This document shows, piece after piece, positions 4,520 to 55,476 of a stretch of 64,000 nucleotides of DNA. Under the pieces are notes generated by a model. That model did not search any database. It worked only from the letters and a program-made list of their open reading frames with translations, and was not told the DNA's origin. The translations under genes and the position numbers were made by a program. How positions within the stretch are numbered: position 1 is the first letter of the stretch; each line of letters starts with the position of its first letter. Source of the DNA: Thermococcus sp. AM4 (GTDB taxonomy: Archaea; Methanobacteriota_B; Thermococci; Thermococcales; Thermococcaceae); contig NC_016051.1 of NCBI RefSeq assembly GCF_000151205.2, positions 496,001 through 560,000 of the forward strand, in the 5' to 3' direction.

Positions 4520-5850
4520 ACCTCGAACCACCTCAATAGGGGCCTCATCGGGTAGACCTCGTAATCGACGACTATTTTCCTGAGCTCGACCACTCCGTAG
4601 CGCGAGAGCTCCCTGAGGAGCCTGAGAACGTCGTAGGGCGGCATGTTAACCTGACGGGCGAGGTCTATCACGCCGATCCCGGGGTTGCTGGCTATGATCT
4701 CCATCATCCTGGGGTAGACCTCAATAGCCCAGGCGGCAACGCCATCCCCCTCAAGGCCCCGGAGGACAACGAGGACATCTTTGAAACCGAAGGGGGAGAG
4801 ATCAATGACACTGATCTGCTTTTTGAGGAAGAGAAGCGCCAGGGGAAACTTAAGCCTTCGGGGGGACCTTCCTATTTCATCTGCCAGGTTCCCGAGGGTT
4901 ACGCCCCTGAGCATTCTCACTATCTCAAGGATCGCTGAGTAGGGCGCCCTCCCCAGCAAAAACCTGGAGAAAGGCAATAAGGGAACGGCGAAGAGGACGG
5001 TAACGCTGAAGGGAAGAAAACCAAGATAAGCCATTATCTCAAGAAGCACGAAGACCAGAACTCCAAGAAAGACCGGATGGAGGAGAACCCTCTCCAGTTT
5101 TAGAAGAACGGCCTCTCCTGCCGGAATTTCAGGCTTTCCGGAGCGCTCCGAAAGGGCGATGTTGGCCACGTGGACGTAAACGTCAATGATTTCAGGATTG
5201 TACTCAACCAGCTCCTTCACGGGGTTGAACGTCATTAGAACACCAACTCCCCTGCCGTAGCGGGAGAGCGTTACAGCGGGAAGGCCGTTGGAGTACCTGG
5301 CAAGGACCTGGGCTCTGTACGGGGTCACAACGGCGACTTGGTATGTGGCGTTGTAGGGGTAAACCCTGCCCTCAAACACCAGGTTCCACTCATCGCTCGC
5401 CTCTTCCGGCTTTTCAATGCGCATGAGCCTGGTTCCCGTTATCCTCTCCAGGGTTCTGCTCCAGCTCTGGGTGTAGGTGTTCAGCCCGAGGACAAGAACG
5501 CCCCCTCTCCTCACGTACTCTGCGAGGGCCGACGTTTCCTCCCGGTTCAGTCTTCCCCCTTCAGTTAGTCCGGCGTTCAAATCTGGGATCCATATTTCGT
5601 CGTATTTAATCAGGTACAGCTCGTTGGAGAGAAGGGAACGGTCGTCGGGAAGATCCCTGCCGAGGTAGAGGACATCAACGGTGAAGTTGCCTTCGGCCCC
5701 AAGGGTGTTTGCGAACATAACGTCCTCGGGATCGCTGCAGACGACCAGTATTCTGGCCTTCTCGTTCGGTGAGGCGTAATTGGGGGGAAGATGGAACAGA
5801 AGGGCAAAGAAAAGAAAGACCACCAGCAGCTTGGAGCCAAGTCTCGTCAT
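4516..5850 (-). CDS. Membrane-tethered regulator with extracytoplasmic domain and winged helix
   Basis: 444 residues. A signal/anchor helix (about 7-26) precedes an outside domain to about 230 containing GGVLVLGLNTY and GRGVGVLMTFNP, again amidotransferase-like in pattern. Two membrane helices lie at about 255-300 (VFLGVLVFVLLEIMAYLGF), then a cytoplasmic part with one winged-helix-like segment near 318-370 and a second at 395-430 (GIGVIDLARQVNMPPYDVLR). The plan parallels the 386-residue protein two genes downstream, though sequences have diverged. GGGTGA lies eight bases before the ATG. It starts 15 bases after the mscS stop, so readthrough from that gene is possible. Confidence 0.65.
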   Translation of the reverse strand: MTRLGSKLLVVFLFFALLFHLPPNYASPNEKARILVVCSDPEDVMFANTLGAEGNFTVDVLYLGRDLPDDRSLLSNELYLIKYDEIWIPDLNAGLTEGGRLNREETSALAEYVRRGGVLVLGLNTYTQSWSRTLERITGTRLMRIEKPEEASDEWNLVFEGRVYPYNATYQVAVVTPYRAQVLARYSNGLPAVTLSRYGRGVGVLMTFNPVKELVEYNPEIIDVYVHVANIALSERSGKPEIPAGEAVLLKLERVLLHPVFLGVLVFVLLEIMAYLGFLPFSVTVLFAVPLLPFSRFLLGRAPYSAILEIVRMLRGVTLGNLADEIGRSPRRLKFPLALLFLKKQISVIDLSPFGFKDVLVVLRGLEGDGVAAWAIEVYPRMMEIIASNPGIGVIDLARQVNMPPYDVLRLLRELSRYGVVELRKIVVDYEVYPMRPLLRWFEV

Positions 5851-5864
5851 TCGAAAGTCACCCT

Positions 5865-6674
5865 TCAGCTTGGCATTTCCTTTATGTGGACGTCCATCTG
5901 CGGGAACGGGATCTCAATGCCCTCCATTGTGTAGGCCTCGTAGATGGCCCTCGTGAGATCGCCCTTAACGGCCCAGTAATCCTCAGTCTTGGCCCACGCC
6001 CTGAGCTGGAGGTTTATCGAGGAATCGGCGAGGGCGGTTATGACGACGCTCGGCTCCGGATCGCTCAGGACCTTCGGGTGGCTCTTCATGATGTCCATCG
6101 CGATCTTTATCGCTTTGTCGAGATCTGTTCCATATGCAACGCCAACGTCCACGTCAACCCTCCTCGTTGGCATCCTGGTGTAGTTGGTTATAACGCTTCC
6201 CCAGACGAGCTTGTTGGGGACCGTTACGAAGGTGTTGTCCGGTGTCAGGAGTTCGGTGCTCATTATACCAACGGCGTTGACCTTTCCAACCTTGCCGGCT
6301 ACCTCAACGACTTCGCCAACGTCTATCGGCCTAAGCGCGGCTATCCACACTCCCGCGGCCAGATTGGTCAGGGTGTCCTGCATTCCAAAGCCCAGGATGA
6401 GGCCGATCACCGCCGAGAGGCCCAGGACGACCGAGCCAACGCCGATTCCCAGCGCGCTGACAGCGAGGAGGATCACCGCAACGTACAGGAGCGCGCTCAG
6501 GAACCGGCCGAGGAACTCCACGACGAGCTCTGGAAGTTTGGTCTTCTTCAGTCCCTTCTTGAAGGCACCGACGACTATCTTGGTCACTATCCAGCCTACC
6601 ACTAGAATCGCTACCGCGGTCGCTATCTGAAGGGGGGTCACCCCTACGTAGGGCAGGGGTTTGTCTATTTTCAC
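5865..6674 (-). CDS. MscS-family mechanosensitive channel
   Basis: About 269 residues. I prefer the GTG near 6674 because GGAGGTGG lies six bases before it; the upstream GTG (6683) would sit on that site. Three N-terminal membrane helices are followed by the glycine/alanine-rich pore helix GLSAVIGLILGFGMQDTLTN, then the beta domain (VGEVVEVAGKVGKVNAVGIM, TFVTVPNKLVWGSVITNYTR) and the C-terminal alpha/beta part ending with PFPQMDVHI. This is the standard MscS layout and length. Such channels open on membrane tension to release solutes during hypo-osmotic shock. It may be the first gene of the leftward surface operon. Confidence 0.9.
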   Translation of the reverse strand: MKIDKPLPYVGVTPLQIATAVAILVVGWIVTKIVVGAFKKGLKKTKLPELVVEFLGRFLSALLYVAVILLAVSALGIGVGSVVLGLSAVIGLILGFGMQDTLTNLAAGVWIAALRPIDVGEVVEVAGKVGKVNAVGIMSTELLTPDNTFVTVPNKLVWGSVITNYTRMPTRRVDVDVGVAYGTDLDKAIKIAMDIMKSHPKVLSDPEPSVVITALADSSINLQLRAWAKTEDYWAVKGDLTRAIYEAYTMEGIEIPFPQMDVHIKEMPS

Positions 6675-43247: not shown

Positions 43248-43761
43248 CCTGGGCTAAGAGCGTTCTCAGCTGGGCCTTCCTCGCGCCCAGCTCCCTGTCG
43301 AGCATGAAGAGGCCGTGCGGATTGTCGCCGATTATCCTAAGCTTGTCCACTATCGCCTTTGTGCTCGCTTCCTCCTCGACCTGCTCCTCGACGAACCACT
43401 GGAGGAACTGATAGGTCGCTCTGTCCTTCTCCTGCTCGGCCAAATCAACGAGCTTGAAGATGGACTGCGTAACGCCGACCTCGTGGAGGTAGACCGCCTC
43501 GAAGGCCTTGAGCGGGCTCTCGAAGTCCTGCTTGGGCTTCTCAATCCTCTCAAGCTCAACTCTTCCGCCTCTGTTGAAGATGTAGTCGTAGAACTTCATC
43601 GCGTGCCCGAGTTCTTCCTCGGCCTGCGCCTCCATCCAGCTGGCAAAACCGTCGAGGCCCCTCTCCTTGAAGTAGGCCGCGATTCCGAGGTAGAAGTAGG
43701 CAGAGAAGAGCTCCTTGTTGAGCTGTTCGTTCAAAGCTTTGAGCATCCTTTCGCTCAGCAT
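43240..43761 (-). CDS. Ferritin
   Basis: 173 residues, standard non-heme ferritin length. Ferroxidase residues are seen in [36 protein letters not shown], and [11 protein letters not shown] / [13 protein letters not shown]. It stores iron as a 24-mer shell. GAGGTGATATC precedes the ATG. It ends inside the start of the SDR gene, so the two may be cotranscribed. Confidence 0.95.
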
Positions 43762-50714: not shown

Positions 50715-51944
50715 ATGGTGAAGGCCAGAGTTGAGAAGCTCTGCACCGACCCGGAGCTCTACATCATCAGGATTGACGATGACGAGATTAAGTACTTCGA
50801 GGCAACCTGGTACATCCCCGAGGGGATAACCTACAACGCATACCTGATGAAGCTGAAGGACGCGGTTGTGCTCTTCGACACGACCAAGGCGGACTACGCC
50901 GACCTGTTTCTCGAAAAGCTGAGGGAACTCGTGAACCCGGAGGAAATAACGCACATCATCGTCCACCACACCGAGCCGGACCACAGCGGGGCTCTGCCAA
51001 AGGTCCTCGAGGCCAACGGCTACAGAGCCCAGGTCATCGGAACGGCCTTCGCGAGGAACCTGCTCGAGGGCTTCTACGGAAAAGACGTCGTTAGGAACTT
51101 CAAGGTCGTCAAGGACGGCGAGGAGATGAGCATCGGCGGAAAGACCTTCCGCTTTATCACCGTCCCCTGGCTCCACTGGCCGGACACGATGATAACCTAC
51201 GTCGTCGAGGACAGGCTGATATTCAGCTGTGACGCCGGCGGTGGCTACTCGATTCCAGAGACGATAGACGACAGCGACGAGGAGGTCGTTCAGCGCTATC
51301 TGCCTTACGTCACCAAGTACATCGTCACCGTTATCGGCCACTACCACAAGTACATCGTCCAGAACATCAAGAAGCTCAAGAACCTCGGAATCGTCGAAGA
51401 CGCCAAGATGATCCTGCCCGGGCACGGAATAGCGTGGTGCCACAATCCAAGGAGAATCTTCGAGTTCTACGAGCGCGTCGGGGCTGGCGTTCCCGAGAAG
51501 GACAAGGTTCTCGTGGTCTACGACTCGATGTACGGCTTCGTTGAGCGGAGAATGGAGATAGTGCTCGACGAGCTTAAGAAGCTCGGAAAGAAGCCGGTAG
51601 TTTACCGCTTCACCGACAGGGAGGCTCCAGCAGTTAGCGACATCCTCGGCGAGGTTCCAAGCGCGGAAGCCATAATCATCGGCGCCTCAACCTTCGAGGC
51701 CGAGATACACCCGCGCATACGCTACACACTCTTCGAGATACTCGATAAGGCCAACTACGAGAAGCCCGTCCTAATCGTCGGAGCGTACGGCTGGGGCGGG
51801 GTTGCGGGGAGGAAGATAGAGACGCTGATAACGAGGAGCAAGTTCGACCACGTGGCAACGGTCGAGAGCAAGGGAATGCCAAGCGAAGAGGACGAGGCCA
51901 AACTGAGGGAGGCCGTCAGGAAGCTCGTCGAGTGGGCTTCGTGA
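50715..51944 (+). CDS. fprA: Flavodiiron protein (A-type flavoprotein, FprA)
   Basis: 409 residues from ATG 50715 (GGTGAT just upstream). The N-terminal beta-lactamase-like di-iron domain has VHHTEPDHSGALP (H-x-E-x-D-H), SCDAGGGYS and IGHYHKYIV as further ligands. The C-terminal flavodoxin domain starts near 260 with LVVYDSMYGFVERRMEI and has GAYGWGGVAGRK. The enzyme reduces oxygen to water or nitric oxide to nitrous oxide with electrons from rubredoxin or similar donors. It heads the oxidative-defence region. Confidence 0.96.
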   Translation: MVKARVEKLCTDPELYIIRIDDDEIKYFEATWYIPEGITYNAYLMKLKDAVVLFDTTKADYADLFLEKLRELVNPEEITHIIVHHTEPDHSGALPKVLEANGYRAQVIGTAFARNLLEGFYGKDVVRNFKVVKDGEEMSIGGKTFRFITVPWLHWPDTMITYVVEDRLIFSCDAGGGYSIPETIDDSDEEVVQRYLPYVTKYIVTVIGHYHKYIVQNIKKLKNLGIVEDAKMILPGHGIAWCHNPRRIFEFYERVGAGVPEKDKVLVVYDSMYGFVERRMEIVLDELKKLGKKPVVYRFTDREAPAVSDILGEVPSAEAIIIGASTFEAEIHPRIRYTLFEILDKANYEKPVLIVGAYGWGGVAGRKIETLITRSKFDHVATVESKGMPSEEDEAKLREAVRKLVEWAS

Positions 51945-52037: not shown

Positions 52038-52553
52038 ATGCCCGTGGAGAGAGCCATGACCAGGAAGTTTTTGGAGGACGCCTTCGCCGGCGAGAGCATG
52101 GCCCACATGAAGTACCTGGTTTTTGCCGAGCAGGCCGAGAAGGAGGGCTTTCCAAAGGTTGCCAAGCTTTTTAGAGCGATAGCCTACGCGGAGTTCGTCC
52201 ACGCTAAGAACCACTTCATAGCCCTGGGCAAGCTCGGGAAAACCGAGGAGAACCTAAAGGAAGCCATAGCGGGCGAGACATTCGAGGTCGAGGAGATGTA
52301 CCCCGTTTACAAGAACTCCGCCGAGTTCCAGGGTGAGAATGAGGCCGTCAGGAGCACTCACTACGCCCTCGAGGCCGAGAAGCTCCACGCCGAGCTTTAC
52401 GAGAAGGCCAAGGAGACGGTTGCGAAGGGCGAGGACATCGAGGTGAAGAAGGTCTACATCTGCCCGGTCTGTGGCTACACCGCCGTGGACGAAGCCCCTG
52501 AGCGCTGTCCCGTGTGCGGTCTGCCGGGCGAAAAGTTCGTGGTCTTCGAATGA
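52038..52553 (+). CDS. rbr: Rubrerythrin
   Basis: 171 residues from ATG 52038. N-terminal four-helix di-iron domain (FLEDAFAGESMAHMKYL, AIAYAEFVHAKNHF, EAVRSTHYALEAEKLHAELY) and a C-terminal rubredoxin domain with CPVCGYTAVDEAPERCPVCG (two C-x2-C). It closely resembles P. furiosus rubrerythrin. It reduces hydrogen peroxide using electrons from rubredoxin/NAD(P)H. Confidence 0.97.
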   Translation: MPVERAMTRKFLEDAFAGESMAHMKYLVFAEQAEKEGFPKVAKLFRAIAYAEFVHAKNHFIALGKLGKTEENLKEAIAGETFEVEEMYPVYKNSAEFQGENEAVRSTHYALEAEKLHAELYEKAKETVAKGEDIEVKKVYICPVCGYTAVDEAPERCPVCGLPGEKFVVFE

Positions 52554-52598: not shown

Positions 52599-53123
52599 AT
52601 GGCTCCGCCCGAACTCGACGAGGGGCTTCCCCTCGAAAGGATTAAGGAATTCTCGCTTGAGGAACTCCTTGGAATGGCCATAAAGGCCGAAATCGGCGCG
52701 AGGAAGTTCTACGAGAGCCTGGCTGAGAGAGTAAACATCGAAGAGCTGAAGGAGAAGGTGAGCTGGCTCGCGGGCGAGGAGAAGAAGCACGAGGAACTGC
52801 TGAGGAAGATTTACGCCGAGTTCTTCCCGGGAAAGGAAGTGGTCTTTCCAAAGGAGCACATCGGGCCGGAGCTTCAGCCCGTTGCCAGGAAGCTCGATAA
52901 GGTGGAGGACATAATCGACCTAATACGGTGGGCGATGAAGGCCGAGGAGATAGCGGCTAAGTTCTACGCCGAGCTTGAGAACATGGTCGAGGACGAGAGG
53001 AAGAAGAGACTCATGCGCTACCTCAGCGACATGGAGTGGGGCCACTACTATAACCTCAAAGCCGAGTACGAGCTCCTCCTCGACTGGGCGATGTACGACC
53101 AGATGATGCACGTTGGGCCTTAA
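52599..53123 (+). CDS. Ferritin-like di-iron protein
   Basis: 174 residues from ATG 52599. Two E...ExxH helix pairs: AIKAEIGARKFYESLA with GEEKKHEELLRKIY, and MKAEEIAAKFYAELEN with MEWGHYYNLKAEYELL. No rubredoxin domain. Similar in plan to 6803-7303 and 54525-55001. Downstream of rubrerythrin in the same direction, so peroxide or iron handling is likely; precise role unknown. Confidence 0.8.
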   Translation: MAPPELDEGLPLERIKEFSLEELLGMAIKAEIGARKFYESLAERVNIEELKEKVSWLAGEEKKHEELLRKIYAEFFPGKEVVFPKEHIGPELQPVARKLDKVEDIIDLIRWAMKAEEIAAKFYAELENMVEDERKKRLMRYLSDMEWGHYYNLKAEYELLLDWAMYDQMMHVGP

Positions 53124-53152: not shown

Positions 53153-53455
53153 TTAAAGCTCCACCTTTATTCCCGTCTCCTCTTCAACCTCCTCAAAGCC
53201 CTCCTTCATGTACTTCGCGAGCTCCTCGTCAACGGCGAAGAGAACCGCCAGGAACTCTCCAAAGTGCTCCTTCTCCTCGTTGGCGACGTCGAGGAAGACG
53301 TGCCTAATCTTCTCGTCCTCGATATGCTCCGCCAGCTGCTCGTAGAAGCTTATCGCGTCGAGCTCGGCCTCGATGGCCCAGCGCAGGGCCTGGGCGATTT
53401 CCCTCTTCGTTAGGGGCCGGCCCTTCGGCAACTCAAACGGGTATTTCGCGAGCAT
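53153..53455 (-). CDS. Encapsulin-cargo-type ferritin-like protein, stand-alone
   Basis: 100 residues. LRWAIEAELDAISFYEQLAEHIEDE and LDVANEEKEHFGEFLAVLF carry the single E...ExxH pair of EncFtn-type half-ferritins. The sequence closely parallels the N-terminal ferritin-like domain that in P. furiosus is fused to the encapsulin shell protein, down to the tail (FEEVEEETGIKVEL here). Here the gene stops at that point and no shell gene follows. Beside it is the DPSL gene, as in P. furiosus. Confidence 0.8.
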   Translation of the reverse strand: MLAKYPFELPKGRPLTKREIAQALRWAIEAELDAISFYEQLAEHIEDEKIRHVFLDVANEEKEHFGEFLAVLFAVDEELAKYMKEGFEEVEEETGIKVEL

Positions 53456-53495: not shown

Positions 53496-54047
53496 TCACC
53501 TCAGGAACTTCGAGACGAAGGGACTCTCTCCGGGGACGCCCCTCCTAAAGTGGCCGCTCGGTTTGCCCGTCAGGAGCTCCTCGAACCAGGCCTCGTGCTC
53601 AATCTCCTCGTGGAGTATTGCCAGAGCCAAATCGTAGGTTCTCGGGTCCTTTCCGAAGGTGTAGCTGCATATCTCCGTGTAGACGCCGACGGCACAGCGC
53701 TCCGCCTGGAGGAGAACCTCGAGGATTTTCTCAACGGTCGGCTCCTCCGGAAGGTAGGCGTCGCTGCACCAGGCCATCTCCACGAAGTCCCGTATGTCCC
53801 TTGGCAACTCGCCTCCAAGCTCGTAAATCCTCGGCACCAAGGCCTCGAAGTGGTTTCTGTCCTCGATGCGGGCGTCTTCGACTATCTCCTTTATCGCCTC
53901 GCCTTCCAGACCGGCGGAATGGTTCCGCAGGAGGGTGTAGTAGTAATAGGTCGTGAACTCGGCCGCGGCCGCTTTCAAGAGCATCTCCAGAAGCTTGTTT
54001 ACGTCCAGCCCAGCCCTTTCAACGAGTCTTCTGTTGTGTTCCGACAT
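53496..54047 (-). CDS. Dps-like protein (DPSL/thioferritin)
   Basis: 183 residues from ATG 54047 (GGTGAA just upstream). [43 protein letters not shown] and [15 protein letters not shown] hold a bacterioferritin-like di-iron site in a Dps-like fold; the two central cysteines (MAWCSDAY and ICSYTFG) match the thiol pair of P. furiosus DPSL. Such 12-mers oxidise iron with peroxide. Divergent from the Fur/PerR-like gene with a palindrome between. Confidence 0.92.
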
Positions 54048-54091: not shown

Positions 54092-54116
54092 CTATTTAGA
54101 AGTTACTTCTAAATAG
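54092..54116. promoter_or_regulatory. Perfect palindrome between dpsL and the Fur/PerR-like gene
   Basis: Arms CTATTTAGAAG (54092-54102) and CTTCTAAATAG (54106-54116) around TTA. It lies between the minus-strand TATA of dpsL (about 54078-54087) and the plus-strand TATA TTTATAAG (54122-54129) of the regulator, the expected place for a shared and autoregulatory operator. Confidence 0.75.
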
Positions 54117-54150: not shown

Positions 54151-54528
54151 ATGTGGAAGGAAAAAGCCATCGAAGAGCTCAGGAGATGGGGATACAAACT
54201 GACACCTCAGAGGCTTAAACTCCTTGAGGTTCTCGAGGAACTCGGGTCAAAGCATCCGGCGATGACCGAGGTGCTCGCAAGAATCCGGGAAGAATTTCCA
54301 ACGGTCAGTTTTTCGACGCTTTACTCCAACCTGCTCACTCTCAGGGAGCTCGGCCTCGTTGAGCTGTTCTCCCTTGATGGGGAGACGAGGGTCGAACTGA
54401 ACACAAAGCCCCACCTCAACCTTATCCACGGCGAGGAAGTTACGGACCTCGACGATGAAGAAATCATCGAGGCCATCAAAAGAAAAGTGGGAAGGAACGT
54501 TCGCCTCGTCAACGTCGTCCTTGACTAA
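54151..54528 (+). CDS. Fur/PerR-family metal- or peroxide-responsive repressor
   Basis: About 125 residues from ATG 54151. Winged helix with RRWGYKLTPQRLKLLEVLEEL, KHPAMTEVLARIREEFPTVSFSTLYSNLLTLRELGLVEL, then the dimer domain with LNLIHGEEVTDLDDEEI. The C-x2-C zinc pairs of bacterial Fur are absent; His/Asp/Glu residues could bind Fe or Mn. The TATA is about 26 bases before the ATG, so the message is probably leaderless. It likely controls dpsL and itself, perhaps more of the region. Confidence 0.85.
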   Translation: MWKEKAIEELRRWGYKLTPQRLKLLEVLEELGSKHPAMTEVLARIREEFPTVSFSTLYSNLLTLRELGLVELFSLDGETRVELNTKPHLNLIHGEEVTDLDDEEIIEAIKRKVGRNVRLVNVVLD

Positions 54529-55001
54529 TCAACCTCAAGGCTGAAGTCCTGGTAGTCCATCCAGATGCCTGTCTTCATAACCGCGTCGTACTGGGCTTTG
54601 AGCAGCTCGTAGTGGGCCTTCTCTATCCTCGCCAGCTCCTCGAAGAGCCTTTTAACTGAGTCATGCCTTGCTTCCTTCGCGGCCTTCTCGTAGAACTCCC
54701 AGGTGAGCTTTTCCTGCTCCATCCCAATCCTCACGGCATCGACTTCGCTTTCAATCTCCCCGGCTTTGACGAGAAGCTTTTCAAGGAGCTCTTCGCTTAC
54801 TGCCGGCAACTTGCACTCCTCGGCAACGCGCTCAAGGAACCTCTCCTCGAACTCCGCCCAGTGGTCGGCCTCCTCCTTGGCCAGGAAAAGGAACATCTTC
54901 TTAGCTTTCTCGTCCTTCGTCTTCCTCGCGAGGTCGAGGTAAAAGCGCATCTCGGCCTTCTCAACCTCCAGGGCCAGAGCTAAAGCCTCAAGCTCGTCCA
55001 T
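54525..55001 (-). CDS. Ferritin-like di-iron protein
   Basis: 158 residues. E...ExxH pairs in LEVEKAEMRFYLDLA with AKEEADHWAEFEE, and GMEQEKLTWEFYEKAA with ARIEKAHYELLKAQY. Rubrerythrin-like without a rubredoxin domain. Ends overlapping the regulator gene by four bases, convergent. Lies after bcp in the same direction (13-base gap), so cotranscription is likely. Confidence 0.82.
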   Translation of the reverse strand: MDELEALALALEVEKAEMRFYLDLARKTKDEKAKKMFLFLAKEEADHWAEFEERFLERVAEECKLPAVSEELLEKLLVKAGEIESEVDAVRIGMEQEKLTWEFYEKAAKEARHDSVKRLFEELARIEKAHYELLKAQYDAVMKTGIWMDYQDFSLEVD

Positions 55002-55014
55002 AAAACCACCCCCG

Positions 55015-55476
55015 CTATTCTTTGCCGATTAGGCCTTTGGCCACTTCCAAAACCTTCGCCGCGTGGCCCTTCGCGCGGACGTTGCGCTTCTCCCAGACTA
55101 TTTTCCCCTCGGGGTTCAGTATGAAGGTGCTCCTAATCGCTCCCTCGTACTCCCGTCCATAGCGCTTCTTCTTGCCCCACGCTCCCAAAGCCCTGTGGAG
55201 TTCAGCGTTCGGGTCACTGATTAGCCTGACCCTCAGGCTGTGCCTCTCCTTGAAGCGGGCGTGGCTCTTCGGCGAGTCCCTTGAGACGCCAATCACCTGA
55301 AAGCCGAGCTTTTCGAACTCGTCTATGAGCTCGGTGAACTCCTTTGCCTCTGTCGTACAGCCGGGTGTGTTGTCCTTGGGGTAGAAGTAGAGAACCGTCC
55401 ACCTGCCGAGAACCAGATCCCTCAGGGGCTTCTCGGTTCCATCTTCGTCGAGAACAACGATGTCCAGATAGTCCAT
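55015..55476 (-). CDS. bcp: Peroxiredoxin, Bcp/PrxQ type
   Basis: 153 residues. Peroxidatic Cys40 in YPKDNTPGCTTEAKEF; no cysteine five residues later, so it is of the one-Cys form. GVSRDSPKSHARFKERH and IRSTFILNPEGKIVWEK are typical. Reduces peroxides with a thiol partner, possibly the CPYC protein at 56097-56441. A palindrome overlaps its promoter. Confidence 0.94.
   Translation of the reverse strand: MDYLDIVVLDEDGTEKPLRDLVLGRWTVLYFYPKDNTPGCTTEAKEFTELIDEFEKLGFQVIGVSRDSPKSHARFKERHSLRVRLISDPNAELHRALGAWGKKKRYGREYEGAIRSTFILNPEGKIVWEKRNVRAKGHAAKVLEVAKGLIGKE

Follow-up and report, generated by a model that had tools for sequence, protein, structure and literature searches.

The window analysed here is a stretch of 64,000 nucleotides (bases 496001-560000 of the single-contig, 2,086,428-bp genome of Thermococcus sp. 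AM4). It contains an intact EncFtn-type open reading frame, read from 53455 to 53153, whose surroundings are rich in genes of a stress context (rubrerythrins, a peroxiredoxin, a Fur/PerR-like regulator and a flavodiiron protein):

50715-51944, plus strand: flavodiiron-type oxidoreductase with ODP and flavodoxin domains (Pfam and NCBIfam profile matches)
52038-52553, plus strand: rubrerythrin with a rubredoxin-like domain (Pfam and NCBIfam profile matches)
52599-53123, plus strand: FLP2, a ferritin-like protein with a rubrerythrin domain; it runs towards the EncFtn gene and ends 29 bp from its stop
53153-53455, minus strand: standalone EncFtn-type ferritin domain of 100 residues (phmmer, Pfam, alignment, AF2, Foldseek)
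53496-54047, minus strand: DPSL, an archaeal Dps-like protein, upstream gene of a predicted two-gene operon, with a 40-bp gap to the EncFtn gene
54092-54116, no strand assigned: perfect 25-bp palindrome CTATTTAGAAGTTACTTCTAAATAG, predicted operator, between DPSL and the divergent Fur gene
54151-54528, plus strand: Fur-family regulator, divergent from DPSL (FUR PF01475; best NCBIfam match PerR, below cut-off)
54525-55001, minus strand: rubrerythrin-like ferritin-like protein FLP3 (domain match)
55015-55476, minus strand: peroxiredoxin of the AhpC-TSA/PrxQ type, same cluster (Pfam and NCBIfam profile matches)

The DPSL gene, which an earlier note on this DNA had placed next door, is identified by its match to 7stw (E = 4.8e-109) and by the NCBIfam Arch_DPS profile (297.5 bits, cut-off 250). 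The 19-bp core of the palindrome (54095-54113) has its sole exact match in the genome here, and a 22-bp operator consensus is found within 4 mismatches at 39 of 40 DPSL loci vs. 1 of 44 loci lacking DPSL; the reversed control of the consensus never came closer than 5 mismatches. The palindrome is thus likely a local Fur-type operator, and its position and conservation suggest the neighbouring Fur-family protein as its regulator. The same window also holds a ferritin gene (43336-43740; PF00210, E 1.7e-45) 10 kb from the EncFtn gene; ferritin, DPSL and EncFtn are therefore all three present in this genome.

The assignment of the 100-residue protein to the EncFtn family is supported by several lines of evidence. 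Using phmmer against PDB sequences, it matches the EncFtn domain of Pyrococcus furiosus (5n5e, E = 4.9e-25) and the full fused shell protein of the same organism (2e0z, E = 2.2e-24). In the latter, residues 2-98 align to residues 2-98, and hence the stop falls where the P. furiosus protein enters its linker, as the earlier note had proposed; the C-terminus reads ...EEETGIKVEL-stop, at the place where fused relatives run on into the linker. Further phmmer matches are Myxococcus xanthus EncC and, more weakly, Rhodospirillum rubrum EncFtn. The Pfam EncFtn-like profile PF22277 is matched above its cut-off (28.9 bits, cut-off 27), and the Rubrerythrin profile PF02915 scores still higher (32.9 vs. 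28.9 bits). The AF2 monomer model (pLDDT 91.9) contains helices at residues 17-43, 48-75 and 77-94, after which only a 6-residue end follows. Its top Foldseek match is 5n5e_A (TM 0.85, E 3.4e-07), so the predicted fold is that of the 5n5e monomer, followed by EncC, NE0167 and R. rubrum EncFtn. The diiron ligands E31, E61 and H64, accompanied by Y38, match the ferroxidase residues Glu32, Glu62 and His65 described for R. rubrum EncFtn (PMC5012862), and E31, Y38, E60, E61 and H64 are unchanged in 96 of 96 aligned sequences. Compared with ten relatives, the gene shows dN/dS values of 0.01-0.14, indicating strong purifying selection. We considered a sequencing frameshift or split reading frame and rejected it: the corresponding genes of 71 genomes ("window-type" hereafter) all stop at nearly the same point, give or take a few residues, and in the window the convergent gene terminates 29 bp beyond the stop, which also leaves no space for a shell remnant.

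Among known systems, the closest is the P. furiosus fusion-FLP (PFC_05175/PF1192; 5n5e, 2e0z), with the same fold and diiron residues; fused relatives occupy the same locus beside DPSL. The window protein differs from it in lacking the shell domain and in having Glu rather than Ala at position 63, within the EEKxH motif. The encapsulated ferritins R. rubrum Rru_A0973 and M. xanthus EncB/EncC (TIGR04535, NF058679), which bear a targeting peptide, share the EncFtn fold and ferroxidase motif; unlike them, the window protein has no disordered tail or targeting motif, and scores below the NCBIfam cut-offs for encapsulated cargo (TIGR04535, 54.9 bits vs. 125; NF058679, 71.6 bits vs. 90). In sequence, the window protein resembles the s-FLPs of Eren et al. 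(2024), being a short FLP with neither a long C-terminus nor an apparent targeting peptide. Such s-FLPs have been described before; according to PMC11202242, Giessen and Silver (2017) had initially regarded them as non-encapsulated. The s-FLP of Nitrosomonas europaea (NE0167; 3k6c) is likewise about 100 residues long, without C-terminal extension or recognised targeting peptide, and matches our model at TM 0.68 with 20% identity in the structural alignment; NE0167 is bacterial, whereas the window protein is archaeal and lies at a site where relatives have a fused shell.

Absence of a Family 1 shell from the genome

The Family 1 encapsulin profile PF04454 gave 0 matches in the whole genome, window included (among positive controls, 3 of 14 known genomes match), and the shell protein of a relative used as query gave 0 as well. 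The statement of the earlier note that the window holds no shell gene is thus correct, and its suggestion that the shell might lie elsewhere does not stand for Family 1, the family to which this absence refers (a Family 2 search gave no match in any control). The genome-wide search for HK97-fold genes that it had proposed did recover two, both Family 4 A-domain (ENCP4) genes: one at 357.5 kb, some 190 kb from the EncFtn gene, the other at 1577.4 kb, roughly 1 Mb from it. Neither a targeting peptide nor a fusion to an encapsulin shell is present in the window protein. The short C-terminal tail, tentatively read in the earlier note as a targeting peptide, was rejected as such: none of the 74 tails compared, from standalone or freed proteins, matches a published targeting motif (they represent 74 of the 75 Thermococcaceae standalone genes, L089 being left out), and the same tail residues form the end of the domain in fused proteins. 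The gene left out, at the window-type locus L089 of G062, is interrupted by a stop close to the N-terminus.

These results bear on one alternative, namely that the protein is cargo of an unrecognised shell such as one built by Family 4 A-domain proteins. Family 4 encapsulins were present in all Thermococcus and Pyrococcus genomes sequenced at the time of PMC8346489, which also describes archaeal Flp-fusion encapsulins, and two such genes occur here. Nonetheless, their distance from the EncFtn gene, the association of Family 4 in that source with hydrogenase, OsmC, GAPDH and DeoC, and the motif-free tails make this reading highly improbable.

Domain, shell and DPSL across genomes

The EncFtn domain was found in 85 of 94 Thermococcaceae genomes (75 standalone, 10 fused), and in all 74 of those with completeness of at least 90% and contamination of at most 5%. 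PF04454 and the shell-protein search agree on 10 of 94 genomes, and each of these shells is fused to an EncFtn domain; no genome among the 85 combines a fused with a separate copy. A single EncFtn match was obtained in 84 genomes; the two matches in G091 come from different contigs, one covering a complete gene and the other a 35-residue fragment. Standalone EncFtn is thus the norm in this family. In 85 segments FLP3 flanks the domain in 61/71 window-type, 4/4 freed and 10/10 fused cases (at many loci without DPSL-Fur it immediately precedes the EncFtn gene), so fused and free forms sit mostly at one locus.

Alignment of the 85 proteins separates three classes: 71 window-type (EEKEH), 10 fused (EEKAH), and four freed proteins (G002, G079, G084, G093), which are standalone yet carry EEKAH; three of these keep extra linker-like residues and the fourth ends in GEK. 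Position 63 is Glu in 71/71 window-type proteins and 11/11 outgroups, and Ala in 14/14 Thermococcaceae fused or freed ones. The replacement by A or T in archaeal fusion-FLPs was noted in a 2024 review (PMC11202242). The rule is weaker in Thermoproteia, where many standalones have EEKTH or EEKAH.

DPSL occurs in 41 of 94 genomes, and its presence differs between classes (10/10 fused, 31/71 window-type, 0/4 freed; Fisher p 0.0004, kinship not corrected for). Where it precedes a window-type gene it is co-directional, with a median gap of 45 bp in 30 loci. Beside two intact fused encapsulins, L152 (G077) and L154 (G080), DPSL is broken by an internal stop or shortened, and the shell can therefore outlast DPSL. 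Furthermore, 14 genomes at least 90% complete have a standalone gene with no shell and no PF00210 match better than 1e-15; in G017 the PF00210 match is weak and partial. The gene is thus kept where neither ferritin, DPSL nor shell was found, and no known cage is obligatory for it. The earlier suggestion that the domain works without a compartment is very likely right.

Beyond Thermococcaceae, none of 11 genomes carrying a standalone EncFtn (Thermoproteota, Methanomicrobiales, Nitrospirae, Deltaproteobacteria) contains PF04454. The class of a Thermoproteota MAG (G094) comprises 229 genomes, with PF04454 in 84 and the EncFtn domain in 122; no shell similarity lies nearby in 39 of 40 standalone-looking Thermoproteia loci fetched. 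At the remaining one, the Thermoproteota locus L216 (G175), a standalone EncFtn gene has a decayed shell remnant close by, apparently a shell loss in progress.

Fused and standalone states: repeated change, shell loss and possible exchange

The trees comprise 103-104 columns with open roots, identical rows being merged (120 to 115); 7 of 30 Thermoproteia encapsulin loci were dropped, six without an open reading frame and L182 without the motif. In the first tree, the 66 distinct window-type rows cluster together (support 89/82), and the four freed rows sit at three supported places among the fused rows; AU tests rejected neither Thermococcaceae as one clade (p 0.45) nor the fused and four freed rows as one clade (p 0.39). 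A single clade of all fused rows was rejected in the larger tree, with freed rows left out (AU p = 2e-11), and the best larger tree requires no fewer than 13 switches between fused and free; this state has thus flipped repeatedly. In the second tree, which took 23 of the 66 window-type rows, two Thermoproteia standalones (L215, L218) join the window-type group (85/93). Both, from Thermoproteota, come nearest to the Thermococcus type among standalone EncFtn proteins, with EEKEH and EEETGV/EEEVGV ends, a resemblance that possibly reflects transfer.

Among close relatives, the freed locus L142 (G079) and the fused L150 (G075) have flanks 85-92% identical and domains 90% identical. Absent from L142 are the Fur-DPSL block (about 3841-4923 of L150) and the shell (about 5303-6091), about 170 bp standing in place of the latter. 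The freed pair L142-L143 shows dN/dS 0.03 at dS 0.28. Loss of the shell in the four freed genomes is favoured over insertion into L150, because the freed proteins keep fused-type residues. Comparison of G001 (L145) with G068 (L148), of different genera, shows shell and DPSL 97% and the domain 94% identical, vs. only 78-79% for Fur, FLP3 and GNAT, which suggests that a domain-shell-DPSL cassette was exchanged horizontally between both lineages.

The earlier note had regarded the window domain itself as freed from its shell. This description suits the four genomes above; for the window lineage, a domain of 100 residues gives no direction of change, and we claim none. Descent from a fused ancestor, with TGIKVEL as a vestige of the domain/linker tail, is conceivable though rather doubtful. 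It would agree with the ...TGI... end common to the standalone and fused proteins of Thermococcaceae and to most Thermoproteia fused proteins examined, and absent from nine non-Thermoproteota outgroup rows, and with the losses seen elsewhere in the family. However, a search of 716,725 bases surrounding the 75 standalone genes revealed no remnant of a shell (best E 0.85), window-type proteins share Glu63 with the outgroups, and the nearest branch outside Thermococcaceae (L215, L218) is itself standalone. Moreover, some Thermoproteia standalones end in TG(I), so the tail needs no fused past.

Proposed function and its meaning

We consider it probable that the window gene encodes a free-standing cytosolic ferroxidase of the EncFtn family, an archaeal s-FLP belonging to an oxygen-stress/iron locus. 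Two copies would pair into a ferritin-like four-helix bundle, each contributing E31, E61 and H64 to a diiron site at their interface, and such dimers would build an open annular decamer like that of 5n5e. Upon exposure of this anaerobe to oxygen, the ring would oxidise cytosolic Fe(II) with O2 or peroxide. Being neither a cage nor enclosed in a Family 1 shell, it would disarm Fenton chemistry rather than store iron. The gene would share a transcript with DPSL, which precedes it, and the promoter of this transcript would carry the palindrome as an operator for the neighbouring Fur-family protein. Removal of cytosolic Fe(II) and O2 is preferred here over storage because R. rubrum EncFtn without its shell oxidises iron and cannot mineralise it; it also aggregates with iron and showed no peroxidase activity, as reported in PMC5012862. 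From the same behaviour, a free ring may handle iron poorly unless a partner exists, and where acceptors are present, as here, DPSL or ferritin would likely receive the Fe(III), this hand-off being optional.

A stricter version would have the EncFtn protein deliver Fe(III) specifically to DPSL, in a two-component iron system replacing the shell. The adjacency, common direction and short gap of both genes, and their predicted shared operator, are in its favour; DPSL also accompanies all ten fused shells. Nevertheless, 40 of the 71 window-type genomes and all four freed ones lack DPSL, the gene still being under purifying selection; delivery to DPSL therefore cannot be general, and we regard this version as unlikely. 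Returning to the free-standing ferroxidase, a broader proposal may be put forward tentatively, as somewhat on the doubtful side: that the archaeal core of this family is a cage-free cytosolic EncFtn ring, to which the HK97 shell is an exchangeable option, time and again fused on or lost at a single iron/oxygen-stress locus and travelling with DPSL as a cassette; position 63 (Glu in long-standing free proteins, Ala/Thr in fused ones) would then mark adaptation outside or inside a shell.

EncFtn proteins are named for, and explained by, encapsulation. In the best-studied of them, iron storage depends on the shell. In the literature searched, no description of a standalone EncFtn in Thermococcus was found, and the P. 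furiosus EncFtn structure paper may mention homologues of this kind. Shell-less EncFtn is the majority form in an archaeal family, under purifying selection, and is kept in genomes in which none of the known cages for storing iron was found. Close relatives that differ, at a single locus, in the shell and the Fur-DPSL block allow the contribution of encapsulation to be compared in nature, and the shell looks like an optional add-on to EncFtn.
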